64,000 bases of DNA, from positions 81,017-145,016 of the forward strand of contig NZ_CP059185.1 of the NCBI RefSeq assembly GCF_014251315.1. Direction: 5' to 3'. Position numbers and translations under genes: made by a program. Positions 39,474-63,792 of this stretch are shown here, in pieces. Within the stretch, counting starts at the first letter, position 1; each line of letters starts with the position of its first letter. Source of the stretch: Blattabacterium cuenoti (lineage in GTDB: Bacteria; Bacteroidota; Bacteroidia; Flavobacteriales; Blattabacteriaceae). A model generated the notes under the pieces. It worked only from the letters and a program-made list of their open reading frames with translations, was not told the origin of the DNA and searched no databases.

Positions 39474-39644
39474 ATGATTATTAAATTTATAGGATTTTTG
39501 TTTTTTTTATTCATAACTATATCTGGTTTTTGGTGTATATTTTTTTTATCTTTTTTTAGTATTTACTGGATTATGAGTATATTAATTAATATGTTTTCAA
39601 TTCGTTTTTTAAAATATAGGAATGATAAAGACAAGAAAATATAA
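39474..39644 (+). CDS. Small hydrophobic protein, 56 residues, unknown
   Basis: The ATG-started frame begins MIIKFIGFLFFLFITISGF and has two probable membrane helices followed by a basic tail ending RFLKYRNDKDKKI. I do not recognise the family. It overlaps the start of the ftsB/divIC-like gene by 23 bases, suggesting coupled expression. It could be a real small membrane protein, a relic of a longer gene, or chance in A+T-rich DNA; the fall into charged residues only at the tail favours a real gene slightly. Confidence 0.4.
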   Translation: MIIKFIGFLFFLFITISGFWCIFFLSFFSIYWIMSILINMFSIRFLKYRNDKDKKI

Positions 39645-39935
39645 AATACTTAAAAATAAATACTTTTGGATTAGTATTTTTTTTTTAATATGGATATCTT
39701 TTTTTGATTCTAATTCTTTAATGTTACACTTAAAATTTAAAAAAAGTATTCAGGAAATGACATTGAATAGAGATTTTTTAAAAAAAAAATTTTATTAGAA
39801 GGAAATAAATTTAAAAAATTAACTACGGATTCTAAATATCTTGAAAAATTAGCAAGAGAAAAATTTTACATGAAAAAAGAAAATGAAGATTTATTTGTTA
39901 TATCCCAAAATAATATTAACGTCCCATATAAATAA
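39622..39935 (+). pseudogene. ftsB: FtsB/DivIC-like septum formation initiator, frameshifted at A10
   Basis: Small bitopic division protein of the FtsB/DivIC family. The first part encodes a basic tail, a membrane helix and the family motif FFDSNSLMLHLKFKK. After the A10 run at 39780-39789 the frame hits TAG at 39796-39798. The expected coiled coil and C-terminus (LEKLAREKFYMKKENEDLFV) continue in the next frame to TAA at 39933-39935. One added A restores 104 residues. The strong conservation on both sides suggests the product is still needed. The end overlaps convergent mnmG by 20 bases. Confidence 0.8.
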
Positions 39936-42267: not shown

Positions 42268-42978
42268 ATGTTGATAACAACAAAAAAAATAATTCCTAAT
42301 ATATTCACTTTATTAAATTTGTTTTGTGGATGTCTGTCTATTATATTTTTACAATCTAGAAATTTTAATTATTCTGCTGTTGTTACTTTATTTTCAATAA
42401 TTTTTGATTTTTTGGATGGTTTTTTTGCTAGATTGATCAAAAACGAAAATCCATTTGGAAAAGAATTGGATTCTCTAGCAGACATGGTTTCTTTTGGATT
42501 AGTTCCATCTGTAATAGTTTTCCTTTTATTGGAAAAAAAAACCCCAATTCCATTTATTGAATATTTTTCTTTTTTTATTTCCATTATTTCTGCATGTCGT
42601 TTAGCTAAATTTAATATTACACCTCATAATAATCATGTAATAGGACTAACAACACCCGTGAATACCCTGTTTTTTTCTTCTTTATCTATCGTAATAATAA
42701 ATCATCCTATCCTCTTTATTAATAAAAAAATCATATATCTTATTACGATGCTTTCTATGATATTCTTTTCCTGTTATTTTTTAATATCTAAGATTAGAAT
42801 GTTTTCTTTTGATTTTGAAGATTTTTCTTGGAAAAAGAATAAAATACGTTATATATTTTTATTGATTAGTACATTTCTTTTATTAACTTTACATGTCATG
42901 GCATTGCCATGCATTATTATTTTTTATATAATAACCTCAATCTATTTTCATAAAAAATTAAAAAAAAAAAATTCATAA
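42268..42978 (+). CDS. pssA: CDP-diacylglycerol-serine O-phosphatidyltransferase
   Basis: Membrane enzyme making phosphatidylserine, precursor of phosphatidylethanolamine. The CDP-alcohol phosphotransferase motif D-G-x2-A-R-x8-G-x3-D-x3-D appears as DGFFARLIKNENPFGKELDS followed by LAD at about residues 50-72. Six or so hydrophobic helices span the 236 residues. An A12 run at 42960-42971 near the end is in frame. The exonuclease gene follows after seven bases. Confidence 0.93.
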   Translation: MLITTKKIIPNIFTLLNLFCGCLSIIFLQSRNFNYSAVVTLFSIIFDFLDGFFARLIKNENPFGKELDSLADMVSFGLVPSVIVFLLLEKKTPIPFIEYFSFFISIISACRLAKFNITPHNNHVIGLTTPVNTLFFSSLSIVIINHPILFINKKIIYLITMLSMIFFSCYFLISKIRMFSFDFEDFSWKKNKIRYIFLLISTFLLLTLHVMALPCIIIFYIITSIYFHKKLKKKNS

Positions 42979-47343: not shown

Positions 47344-48060
47344 ATGTCAGGACATAGCAAATGGTCAAATATACAACATAGAAAATCGAATCAAGATTTC
47401 AAAAAATCTAAGAAATTTTCTAAAATTATTAAAGAGATTTCTATGGCCGTAAAAGAATCAGGCACAAACAATTCTCGTTTTAGAAATGCGGTTTCGAATG
47501 CTAAATCGTTCAACATTCCTAAAAATACTATAGAAAAGGCTATAAAAAAAGCTTTGCAAATCAAAACAGATGGGTACAAAAATTTGGATTTAGAAGGATT
47601 AATTCACGGAATTAGTCTGATTATAGAATGTGTGACGAATAATAGCATTAGAACAACCTCCAATATTCGAATCCTTTTTAATAAAAATAAAGGAAGATTA
47701 TGTCATAACGGAGAATTAACTCATTTTTTTCATAAAATGGGTGTTTTTTGTGTAAAAAAAAAGGATATCCATTATTCAGTGGAAGATTTTGAACTTATGA
47801 CAATAGATTTTGGAGCTAAAGATTTTATAGAAGATCATGATATAATTTATTTATATACAGATTTTGAATATTTTGGATCTATGAAAAATAGTTTGGATAA
47901 GTTAGAAATACTTCATAAGTATAAAGTGAAACGTATTCCTAGACAAATGAAATACATTTCAGAAGAAAAAAAAAATAAAGTTTTAGATTTAATTGAAAAA
48001 CTTTACCTAAATGAAGATGTAGAAAATATTTACTCAAATATAGATGAAAATAAAAAGTAG
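47344..48060 (+). CDS. yebC: YebC/PmpR family protein
   Basis: Conserved cytoplasmic protein of the TACO1 family, whose members act as regulators or as translation factors easing ribosome stalling. The N-terminus [18 protein letters not shown] and [17 protein letters not shown] are diagnostic. The length of 238 residues is normal. Its last codons double as the 5' strand of the RNase P RNA P1 helix, so the 3' end cannot drift freely. Confidence 0.93.
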
Positions 48061-48359
48061 AATGTCCTATCGCATTTTTTTTTAACAAAAAATGAGGAAA
48101 GTCCGGACACCGTAGAGCAACACAATGGGTAACTCCCATCCATCGTAAGGTGAGGAATAGTGCAACAGAAAGAAAGTACAGATATAATTTATTAATTGCT
48201 GTAGTGAAATCATGTAAACTCTGTGTGGTGAAATGCCATGTATACCGGAAAACTAGCTCGGTTGAAACCGGGGGGTAGGCAGATTGAGATCATGGGTAAC
48301 CTAGATCCTAGATAAATGATAGGTGTAAAAACAGAATCCGGCTTATAATTCTACTTTTT
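48052..48359 (+). ncRNA. rnpB: RNase P RNA, type A
   Basis: Catalytic RNA that trims tRNA 5' leaders. Conserved elements in order are GAGGAAAGTCCGGAC (48093-48107), the AACAGAAAGAAAGTACAG region, GGTGAAATGCC, GGTTGAAACCGG and the 3' ACAGAATCCGGCTTATA. The P1 helix is a perfect 12-base-pair match between AAAAAGTAGAAT (48052-48063) and ATTCTACTTTTT (48348-48359). The 5' strand therefore overlaps the end of yebC. Mature ends may lie a few bases inside. tRNA-Ser begins two bases after P1 ends. The protein partner, rnpA, is frameshifted elsewhere in the window. Confidence 0.95.
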
Positions 48360-48360
48360 C

Positions 48361-48445
48361 GGAGAGGTGGCCGAGAGGATTAAGGCGCACGTCTGGAAAG
48401 CGTGTTCACCAAAAAGTGTCAAGGGTTCGAATCCCTTTCTCTCCG
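48361..48445 (+). tRNA. trnS: tRNA-Ser(GGA)
   Basis: An 85-base cloverleaf with long variable arm. Acceptor GGAGAGG pairs with TCTCTCC (one G-U). The anticodon stem CACGT/GCGTG encloses CTGGAAA, giving anticodon GGA. The T-arm has TTCGAAT, the discriminator is G and CCA is not encoded. It starts with a single-base spacer after the RNase P RNA helix, so both probably come from one transcript. Confidence 0.96.
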
Positions 48446-57681: not shown

Positions 57682-59046
57682 ATGGAAGAAAAAGAACAAT
57701 TCTTTTTAGAAATTTACAATTTAGGAATCATAAAGTTTGGAAATTTTACACTGAAAAGTGGAATGAATTCTCCTATATATATAGATTTTCGTCCAATAGC
57801 TTCTAGACCTGATTTATTAATCAAATTATCAGATTTACTAATACGTGAAGTTACATCTTATGATTTTGAATTAATTTGTGGAGTTCCATACGCTGCTTTA
57901 CCTATAGCTACTACTTTATCTTTAAGATCTAAAGTCCCGCTAATTATTAAAAGAAAAGAAAATAAAGGATATGGAACAGAACGAATGATTGAAGGAATAT
58001 ATAAAATAGGACAAAATTGTCTTATTATAGAAGATGTAATCACAAGCGGAGATAGTTTATTAAGAACTGTAATCGATCTTGAAAAAGAAGGATTAATCAT
58101 TAAAAATATTATGTCTATTCTTGATAGAGAACAAGGAGGGATCGAAAATATAAAAAAAAGAGGATATAATATTCGAACTTTATTTAAAATAAGAGAAGTT
58201 TTCAAACTATTAAAAAAAAAACATTTTTTAAAGAAAAAAGAAATACATATGATTCAATTTTTTTTCAAAAAAAGAAATATAAAAAATATTCAAAATAAAC
58301 GAATTTCTTATGAAGAGAAAAAAAATAAAATTTCTCATCCTATAGGAAAAAAACTTATTGATATTACGTTAAAAAAAAAAACAAACTTGATAGTTTCTGC
58401 TGACTTGATATACACTGAAAATATTTTAAAATTAGTCAATTCAATTGGAGATAGAATTTGTGGATTAAAACTTCATGTAGATATTATAAATGACTTTTCA
58501 TATTCATTTATAAAATGTCTTAAAAATATTTCTATAGAAAAAAAATTCTTATTATTCGAAGATCGAAAATTATGTGATGTTGGTCCGACTAATTATCTTC
58601 AATTACATTACGGGATACATAAAATTTCTTCTTGGGCAGACATCATCACAACGCACGTAATTGCTGGTAGTATGAGTATACAAAACTTAAATATTCCTTC
58701 TAGTATGGGATTGATTACAATATCTGAAATGTCTTCTCACGGAAGATTATCGGATGATCATTACATAAGAAAAGCTCTGAATATTTCTTTGAAAAATCCA
58801 AAAGTTATTGGAACTGTAGCACAAAGAAAAGTGGATGATCGATTATTATTGTTTACGCCTGGAATTCATTTTTCTCAACAAAATAATGACGGAGGAAATA
58901 GGTACATTCATCCTGTCCAAGCTTTTGAAAAAAATGGAAGCGATTTTATTATTGTAGGTAAAGCGATTTACAAATCTATTAATCCAGAAATAGCGGCAGA
59001 AGAATATAGAGATGCAGGATGGAAAGCTTATGAAAATGGACTTTGA
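57682..59046 (+). CDS. pyrEF: Bifunctional UMP synthase: orotate phosphoribosyltransferase + OMP decarboxylase
   Basis: Fusion of the last two steps of UMP synthesis. Residues 1-175 are OPRT, with FGNFTLKSGMNSPIYIDFR and the PRPP loop CLIIEDVITSGDSL (about 113-126). A lysine-rich linker (about 176-225) follows. Residues 226-454 are OMP decarboxylase with the catalytic D-x-K-x-x-D in FEDRKLCDVGPT (about 291-302) and the loops KISSWADIITTHV and GSDFIIVGKAIYKS. Domain order and the decarboxylase sequence resemble eukaryotic UMP synthase more than ordinary bacterial PyrF. An A11 run at 58371-58381 is in frame. Confidence 0.93.
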   Translation: MEEKEQFFLEIYNLGIIKFGNFTLKSGMNSPIYIDFRPIASRPDLLIKLSDLLIREVTSYDFELICGVPYAALPIATTLSLRSKVPLIIKRKENKGYGTERMIEGIYKIGQNCLIIEDVITSGDSLLRTVIDLEKEGLIIKNIMSILDREQGGIENIKKRGYNIRTLFKIREVFKLLKKKHFLKKKEIHMIQFFFKKRNIKNIQNKRISYEEKKNKISHPIGKKLIDITLKKKTNLIVSADLIYTENILKLVNSIGDRICGLKLHVDIINDFSYSFIKCLKNISIEKKFLLFEDRKLCDVGPTNYLQLHYGIHKISSWADIITTHVIAGSMSIQNLNIPSSMGLITISEMSSHGRLSDDHYIRKALNISLKNPKVIGTVAQRKVDDRLLLFTPGIHFSQQNNDGGNRYIHPVQAFEKNGSDFIIVGKAIYKSINPEIAAEEYRDAGWKAYENGL

Positions 59047-59203: not shown

Positions 59204-59779
59204 ATGGAATGGATCAATTCATTAATTAGTTGTTTTATGATACTTTTTAGCATTATAGATATATTAGGGAATGCTCCCATAATTATGGGGTTTAAATCAA
59301 AGGGGAACATTATAGATACTAAAAAAGTTATAATTACTTCTCTTGTAATATTTTTATCTTTTCTTTTTTTAGGACAACCTATGCTTAAAATCATTGGAGT
59401 TGATGTTCATTCTTTTTCTGTAGCTGGATCTGTAGTATTGTTTTTAATTGGGTTAGAAATGATATTAGGAATAGATCTTCATAAAGTTACGAAAAATGCT
59501 CAAACTTCTATTGTTCCAATAGCTTTTCCACTTATAGCTGGTCCCGGATCTTTAACTACTTTAATTTCATTAAGAGCAACTTATGACGTAAATATTATTC
59601 TTTTATCTCTTATTTTAAATATGATAGTTGTCTATTTTGTGATAGACAGATGTGATTTTATAGCCGAAAAAATAGGAAATAATGGTTTAGATATTTTAAA
59701 AAAAATATTTGGAATTGTTTTATTAGCTTTTGCAGTGAAAATTTTTGGAGCTAATGCGGGGCAATTGTTTCAACAATGA
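59204..59779 (+). CDS. MarC family integral membrane protein
   Basis: This 191-residue protein has about six membrane helices and belongs to the MarC/UPF0056 family: GNAPIIMGFKSKG, LIGLEMILGI, PIAFPLIAGPGSLTTLISL and the C-terminal GIVLLAFAVKIFGAN. Function is unsettled in the family. The frame opens at TTG 59198, but the ATG at 59204 is the likelier start. Its last 29 bases overlap the end of convergent rnpA. Confidence 0.88.
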   Translation: MEWINSLISCFMILFSIIDILGNAPIIMGFKSKGNIIDTKKVIITSLVIFLSFLFLGQPMLKIIGVDVHSFSVAGSVVLFLIGLEMILGIDLHKVTKNAQTSIVPIAFPLIAGPGSLTTLISLRATYDVNIILLSLILNMIVVYFVIDRCDFIAEKIGNNGLDILKKIFGIVLLAFAVKIFGANAGQLFQQ

Positions 59780-60124
59780 TTTTATTGAAAATGTTTACAA
59801 TAGATTCATTTATATCTTTAAATTTGGGTAAATAAAAAGCTTTATAAATAAAAATAATGTAACAATTTTTATTATTATTTATAATACTTTTATTCAAAAT
59901 TGATTTATTTAGAAAAAAAGAAGCTTTTAACAAACGTTTTATTCTATTTCTATGAACTGATTTTTTAAAATTTTTTTTTTCACTAAAGTTCCAATTAGAT
60001 TTAGTGACAAGTTTTTTCCAAAATTTGTTTCTTTTAACAAAAAGACAGATAAAACAGGATATACGAATAAATATTTTCCATTTTTTATTACTTTTTCAAA
60101 AATTTTTTTTTCTTTAAGATGCAT
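59751..60124 (-). pseudogene. rnpA: RNase P protein subunit RnpA, frameshifted at A10
   Basis: Protein partner of the RNase P RNA. The first piece starts at 60124 (MHLKEKKIFEKVIKNGKYLF) and ends at a TAA just after 59941. The conserved RNA-binding signature (FKKSVHRNRIKRLLKASFFL) lies in another frame that continues to 59751. A T10 run on the plus strand (59971-59980; A10 on the sense strand) lies exactly at the switch. One extra A joins the pieces into about 124 residues, normal for RnpA. Since the protein is essential in bacteria studied, it is probably still made. The 3' end overlaps marC by 29 bases. Confidence 0.85.
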
Positions 60125-60133
60125 TTTTAAGAT

Positions 60134-61135
60134 TTATTCACAATCTAGCATAAACTCTTCTAACTTGGAAACCATTCCTGTAGGACCACAAACGAATGGA
60201 GTCCTTTGATGTAATTTAGTAGGTTCTATGTCTAGAATCCGTTTTTTTCCATCAGAAGCTTTTCCTCCAGCTTGTTCTGCTAAAAAAGCCATAGGATTAC
60301 ATTCATAAAGTAATCTCAATTTTCCTTCTGGAGAAGAAGCTGTTTTGGGATAAATGTATATTCCTCCTTGTATAAGGTTTCTGTGAAAATCTCCCACTAA
60401 AGATCCAATATATCTTGCTGTGTATGGACGATTGTCTTTTTTTTCTTGACAATATCTAATAAATTTTCTAATAGAATTAGAAAATTTAGCATAATTTCCT
60501 TCATTAATAGAATAAATTTTTTCTTTTTTAGGAAAATGAAGATTAGAGTGAGATAAGTAAAATGTTCCAACTGAAGGATCTAAAGTAAATCCATGGACTC
60601 CATCCCCAATACTATATACTAATATAGTAGAAGATCCATAAATAATATATCCAGCAAGAATTTGTTTATTTCCTTTTTGCAAAAAATCTTCTATTGTTAA
60701 ATTCATTTGAATAGGAGTTTTTCTCATATACACAGAAAATATAGTACCAATAGATACATTCACATCTATATTAGATGAACCGTCAAGTGGATCTATTAAA
60801 ACAATATATTGATTTTGAAAAATATTTTCATGTTTCCCTTTTATTACTATAAAATTTTTACTTTCTTCAGAAGCTATTCCACAAACAACATTTCTACTTT
60901 TAAAAGATTCAATAAAAGCTCGATGAGCAAAATCATCCAATTTTTGTTGATTTTCTCCTTGAATATTAGTAATACCAGAACTTCCTATAATTTCTTCTGT
61001 TAATCCTGCTTTATTAACTTCTTTATGAATCGCTTTAGAAGCCAATTTTATAGAGCTAAATAATCGTAATAATGCTTCTGTAGAATATGAAAAACGATCT
61101 CTATTTTTTATAATAAACTCTCCTAATGTATACAT
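60134..61135 (-). CDS. fbp: Fructose-1,6-bisphosphatase class I
   Basis: Gluconeogenic phosphatase making fructose 6-phosphate. The metal-binding signature [19 protein letters not shown], with [10 protein letters not shown] before it, is intact. [20 protein letters not shown] near the C-terminus holds the substrate lysine and metal glutamate. The length of 333 residues is normal. Its presence suggests sugars are built from amino-acid or TCA carbon. It lies nine bases upstream of rnpA. Confidence 0.96.
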
Positions 61136-63373: not shown

Positions 63374-63792
63374 ATGATTTATAAAATTTATAAAAAATAC
63401 CATGATATGATATATATGAATATGGCTATCGAACGTTCAAAATTATCTTTTTGCAAAAAAAAAAAGTAGGCGCTGTTATAGTTAAAAATAATAAAATCAT
63501 ATCTGATGGATATAACCATACTCCAGATGGATTTGATGATATATGTGAAGATCACAATGGAAATACAAAATGGTATGTTATACATGCAGAAGCAAATGCC
63601 ATATCAAAAATGGCTTCTTCTTCTTTATCCTGTGAAGGAGCTTCCATATATATTACTCATTTTCCATGTAAAGAATGTTGTAAATTAATTTATTTTTCTA
63701 ATATAAAAAGAGTTATTTATTTACAACATGCAATAAAAAATGAAGAATTATCTTTTTTGAGAAAACTAAAAATAGGAATAGACAAACTATAA
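63374..63792 (+). pseudogene. dCMP deaminase family protein, frameshifted at A11
   Basis: Zinc-dependent cytidine/deoxycytidylate deaminase. The first piece starts at the ATG at 63374 (KKYHDMIYMNMAIERSKLSF then C) and hits TAG at 63467-63469. The catalytic part lies in the next frame: VGAVIVKNNKIISDGYNHTP, the zinc motif HAEANAI with the proton-shuttling Glu, and PCKECC. The break lies at the A11 run 63455-63465; one extra A gives 139 residues, a normal length. A TTG at 63451 could restart translation but would lose the first helix. Confidence 0.8.

Follow-up and report, generated by a model that had tools for sequence, protein, structure and literature searches.

RNase P is the enzyme that trims tRNAs, and its protein half, encoded by rnpA, is essential in the bacteria studied. 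In most species of Blattabacterium, which lives as a symbiont in the fat body of cockroaches and of Mastotermes, this gene is divided between two reading frames, which raises the question of whether it still functions and, if so, how a complete protein could be made. The window analysed here is a stretch of 64,000 nucleotides (positions 81017–145016 of a single contig of 633,448 bp). The upstream half of rnpA (59939..60124, minus strand) opens with an ATG at 60124, aligned with the RnpA start in relatives, and runs in the zero frame for 61 amino acids, about 51 of which are RnpA, reading ...NLIGTLVKKK-ILKNQFIEIE* up to the stop at 59939. The downstream half (59751..59970, minus strand) lies in a shifted frame, reads ...NFKKSVHRNRIKRLLKASFF...IAPH* to its end at 59751, and carries the RNA-binding signature HRNRIKR. 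The frame changes at a tract of exactly ten A residues on the sense strand (opposite 59971..59980), which is also the proposed slippage site. Since the spacing between the GGA codon of LIGTLV and the HRN codon is 38 nt (2 mod 3), one additional A (or the loss of two) joins both frames. The first-pass annotation had described this arrangement, with one added A as the join, and it is borne out by the joined protein, which matches the Pfam family PF00825 (8.2e-12) over profile positions 6–108 of 109. The downstream half alone still matches over positions 52–108 (1.1e-6), while no PF00825 match was found for the upstream half alone. With a whole-domain profile match and the RNR-type basic motif (HRNRIKR), the joined product belongs to the bacterial RNase P protein family.

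The upstream neighbour on the same strand is fbp (fructose-1,6-bisphosphatase, 60134..61135, minus strand), whose stop is separated from the rnpA ATG by 9 nt, and the two genes are probably cotranscribed; fbp serves below as dN/dS control and forms part of the species tree. The RNA half of the enzyme, rnpB, is intact (48054..48361, plus strand; G000:C1:129070-129377; RF00010, E 9.5e-66). No second intact rnpA is present in the genome the window comes from, and throughout the genus sample there is one PF00825 match per genome, except in G022, where two adjacent pieces match. A separate C-terminal protein made from an internal start was considered and rejected: the downstream frame has a single listed start (TTG, 59933), which is located past HRNRIKR and would give a product devoid of the signature. 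The split is more than a chance juxtaposition of open frames, since the family signature lies in the downstream frame, in which no premature stop occurs in any of the 49 genomes compared.

The genus sample consisted of 49 Blattabacterium genomes, one per species and including that of the window, and the tract was aligned, and its phase counted, with the GGA codon of LIGTLV and the HRN..KR codon as the two anchors of the distance. Both rnpA (as PF00825) and the RNase P RNA were found in every one of them. The tract is in phase 0 in 11 genomes, in phase 1 in 18 and in phase 2 in 20, and the gene is disrupted at this site in 39 species (the window symbiont and 38 of its 48 sequenced sisters), a count which covers both shifted phases and includes G042, which is in phase 0 but has an in-frame stop. 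Comparison with related strains, which had been suggested as a check, thus gives the same disrupted site and the same conserved halves across most of the genus. The tract has at least nine A residues in 46 of the 49 genomes, ten being the commonest length. In the loci examined from other genera of the family, rnpA is open across the tract site, even where there are runs of A9–A11. One further irregularity was seen in L008 (G041, which has an identical 3,816-bp plasmid in common with the Cryptocercus punctulatus symbiont): its rnpA has A12 and is in frame at the tract, while beyond HIVF the C-terminus no longer resembles that of its sisters, which looks like the effect of a second shift, in a T run.

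When mapped onto a tree built from the flanking genes, the three-state phase requires at least 24 changes, compared to 22.5 for shuffled labels, and sister species only 0.04–0.08 substitutions per site apart already differ. Since the changes are no fewer than for shuffled labels and close sisters differ, the DNA phase of rnpA is thus nearly free. The first-pass annotation had supposed that, if the shift is real, the level of RNase P would depend on how often slippage occurs; this near-random turnover of the three phases argues against a fine tuning of that level. The rapid turnover in tract length, together with the frequent polyploidy of insect symbionts, could also suggest that tract lengths are mixed among the many genome copies of a cell, the in-frame copies providing the message and the assembly showing only the majority length. 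We regard this as highly improbable, as it requires an out-of-frame majority in most species.

The absence of phylogenetic signal in the rnpA phase is equally what would be seen if the assemblies were miscounted and the gene truly in frame; long A runs are error-prone, and strain Bge was partly sequenced by 454 pyrosequencing (PMC2768785), which adds to this concern. For comparison, coding tracts of at least ten A were collected from six genomes (200 kb each), and the frame on each side of the tract was scored by codon usage. Of the 220 tracts other than that of rnpA, 203 are in frame and 17 out of frame, the latter (8%) being an upper bound as some are gene boundaries (for example window position 42960, between two genes), whereas rnpA is out of frame in all six genomes. 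The longer control tracts (A11–A13) are in frame in 55 of 58 cases. A general miscount would hit all tracts, and with at least 92% of the controls in frame a wrong base count, which had been offered as the alternative to a bypass, is very unlikely: 39 of 49 species share the disrupted rnpA site, whereas at most 17 of the 220 other tracts are out of frame.

An example of such a tract lies within a single ORF of 454 aa (window 57682-59046), in which domains resembling those of pyrE and pyrF (orotate phosphoribosyltransferase and orotidine-5-phosphate decarboxylase, recognized by eye) are fused; each of the six genomes compared keeps its A10–A11 tract in frame. The same holds for some other conserved tracts, which indicates that phase matters in general, and rnpA and the dCMP deaminase gene described below are tolerant exceptions. 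Some other frame changes were observed. A gene resembling a septum formation initiator (FtsB/DivIC type, by eye; window 39622-39935) is split at an A10 tract (39780-39789), and the ORFs of about 106 aa of three relatives are continuous through this site. A filtered homology scan for frameshifts is blind to rnpA because the gene is out of frame in all six genomes scanned; at G000:C1:34901, in the same genome as the window but outside it, the scan detected a run of nine A across which the frame of a gene changes, and in relatives this gene encodes about 367 aa. The frame changes at G015:C1:19578, 84823 and 145618 have no long homopolymer at the junction and are possibly assembly errors or decaying genes.

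The second exception is a dCMP deaminase gene (63374..63792, plus strand; PF00383, 2.2e-24), which is out of frame at an A11 tract (63455..63465, plus strand). The upstream frame reads TGC-AAA-AAA-AAA-AAG-TAG there, and one additional A restores the frame. It is out of frame in 33 of the 49 genomes, nearly all of them with A11, and the 16 in-frame copies comprise nine with A12 and seven in which the tract is interrupted by another base. Its frame state follows the tree (9 changes compared to 13.7 for shuffled labels, P 0.003), which also speaks against miscounting.

If the break is bypassed by means of the tract itself, an out-of-frame copy cannot do without a pure tract, and interruptions should be confined to in-frame copies. 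This is the pattern observed. There are three interrupted tracts in rnpA and seven in the dCMP deaminase gene (3 + 4 independent events), and all ten are in frame, while none of the 72 out-of-frame copies of the two genes is interrupted (Fisher's test: 0.0065 and 1.3e-4, respectively; 3.8e-7 when pooled, ignoring phylogeny; about 1e-4 when based on events). In formal pair tests on the tree, the events were too few for significance to be reached. The same pattern would also be expected from miscounted pure tracts, and it counts only in combination with the low out-of-frame rate of the controls. Retention points the same way: at least nine A are kept at the rnpA tract in 46 of 49 genomes, compared to 36% at the orthologous positions of other tracts of at least ten A.

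A third possibility is that rnpA is a pseudogene and that RNase P acts as RNA alone, as has been proposed for strain Bge. Dead genes would be expected to gain other stops and to be deleted. Over 12 pairs of sister species with both members out of frame, the pooled dN/dS is 0.47 for the upstream half and 0.39 for the downstream half, compared to 0.19 for fbp. The gene is therefore under purifying selection, with a weaker constraint (about twice the dN/dS of fbp), and yet it is not dead. The conservation of both halves, HRNRIKR included, which had been noticed in the window genome, holds across the genus according to these values and to the open downstream frame. All 49 species keep rnpA with both halves open and the signature conserved, and the disruption is always at the same tract. 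Further disabling changes, relaxed selection and loss in some lineages, by which a pseudogene would be recognized, were not found for rnpA, and we consider this explanation extremely improbable.

The published case nevertheless deserves a closer comparison. In the Bge genome, no pseudogene was described other than the RNase P protein gene, in which a stop takes the place of residue 53, a lysine in free-living relatives; an A-to-T point mutation was proposed for the stop, and an RNA-only activity was suggested (Lopez-Sanchez 2009, PMC2768785). G042 in our sample (chromosome 636,850 bp) is this strain, as its plasmid of 4,085 bp shows 100% identity with NC_015679, the plasmid of Blattabacterium sp. 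(Blattella germanica) Bge. If the ATG at which we begin the gene is residue 1, the TAA following A10 falls exactly on residue 53. The Bge gene (L002:1600-1700) has A10 like its relatives, and the next A run is one A short, so that the total length is correct but a TAA lies inside the gene. In the related G030, which is in phase 1, the tract is likewise A10 and the next run has one A more, so the Bge gene represents the common out-of-frame state with a second one-base difference, either real or a 454 miscount. The gene and the site are thus the same as in the window, but while the 2009 reading was of a point mutation in a dead gene, the comparison with sister species describes a tract phenomenon of the whole genus, and these data argue against the RNA-only suggestion. 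A single slip at A10 would, however, not restore the frame in Bge, since the second, shorter run is one base short, and this counts against slippage.

The reading that we consider probable is that rnpA is functional despite its out-of-frame DNA and is rescued by slippage of RNA polymerase on the A tract. The polymerase would slip on the long tract and produce mRNAs with varying numbers of A, and the in-frame fraction would be translated into full-length RnpA, which would join the intact RNase P RNA. As some in-frame message would be made at any tract length, the DNA phase could drift almost freely between species, while out-of-frame DNA would demand that the tract stay long and unbroken. The features by which slippage rescue is recognized are present in rnpA: the frame is broken within an A tract of at least nine residues (A10), the halves are intact and under purifying selection, and the disruption is kept across species (39 of 49). 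Copies in phase 2 need one additional base and those in phase 1 need one less (or two more), and the presence of both shifted phases suits slippage, which can occur in either direction. The first-pass annotation had held that the cell must bypass the break, for example by slippage. The comparative data favour a bypass that depends on the tract; slippage as such is suggested by the sequence and by work on Buchnera and Blochmannia.

Ribosomal frameshifting would be a bypass at the level of translation, by a –1 shift on A-AAA-AAA (the dnaX-like A-AAA-AAG in the dCMP deaminase gene) or a +1 shift on UUU-UAA or CUU-UAA. The –1 shift would serve all 20 phase-2 rnpA genomes, the out-of-frame dCMP deaminase genes are nearly all A11 with A-AAA-AAG directly followed by UAG, and UUU-UAA or CUU-UAA directly follows the tract in 12 of the 18 phase-1 rnpA genomes. 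However, L014, L020, L039 and L047, which are in phase 1, offer no site for +1 re-pairing of the P-site tRNA, and a +1 site needs no A tract, yet the tract is retained in all phase-1 genomes. Programmed frameshifting is characterized by a stimulatory structure and a single direction, and here both directions are needed across species and no RNA structure was found downstream of the rnpA tract (mean z –0.13). Ribosomal frameshifting is thus an unlikely explanation, although the two processes may act together. We prefer slippage during transcription, to which the ribosome may add some help, and infer that the break is bypassed when the gene is transcribed and not when the message is translated, that the needs of the cell are covered in this way, and that rnpA is tolerant because little of the protein is needed.

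The mechanism itself is already known. The rescue by slippage in Buchnera and Blochmannia (Tamas 2008; Wernegreen 2010; via PMC5009743, PMC3017870, PMC4389277) likewise concerns AT-rich insect endosymbionts in which a gene still functions although it is broken within a long A tract, with both halves conserved and a frameshift common to several species. There, one conserved frameshift is described, while the present case concerns rnpA in a member of the Bacteroidota, with 39 of 49 species affected and all three phases represented. In the poly(A)-broken genes of aphid and ant symbionts, 12–50% of transcripts are corrected (PMC5009743, PMC3017870), and the Blochmannia authors treat such genes as intact (PMC3017870, PMC4389277). 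Messages in several frames also arise from A tracts of about nine residues in Thermus dnaX and Shigella mxiE (PMC1088944). Slippage was shown there by experiment, whereas here we infer it, and both products that it gives in dnaX are useful, while in rnpA it would do no more than restore a single protein. A genus-wide account of disruption or slippage in Blattabacterium rnpA was not found in the literature searched, although papers outside that search could contain one, and the genus-wide, phase-wandering case thus appears to be unreported in it.

More tentatively, rnpA, the dCMP deaminase gene and perhaps others could be phase-neutral throughout the genus, which we regard as possible but somewhat doubtful: poly(A) would then be a lasting mixer of frames, with phase invisible to selection, tract length and purity selected, and the dosage cost tolerated or even favoured. 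The 49 species, with three DNA phases, form a natural experiment for slippage efficiency, dosage tolerance and selection for tract purity. The annotation of such genes as pseudogenes is probably wrong, and if the slippage reading is true, the published case of a pseudogene with an RNA-only RNase P would be overturned, and most species of an old genus of symbionts would depend entirely on errors of the polymerase for making an essential part of RNase P.
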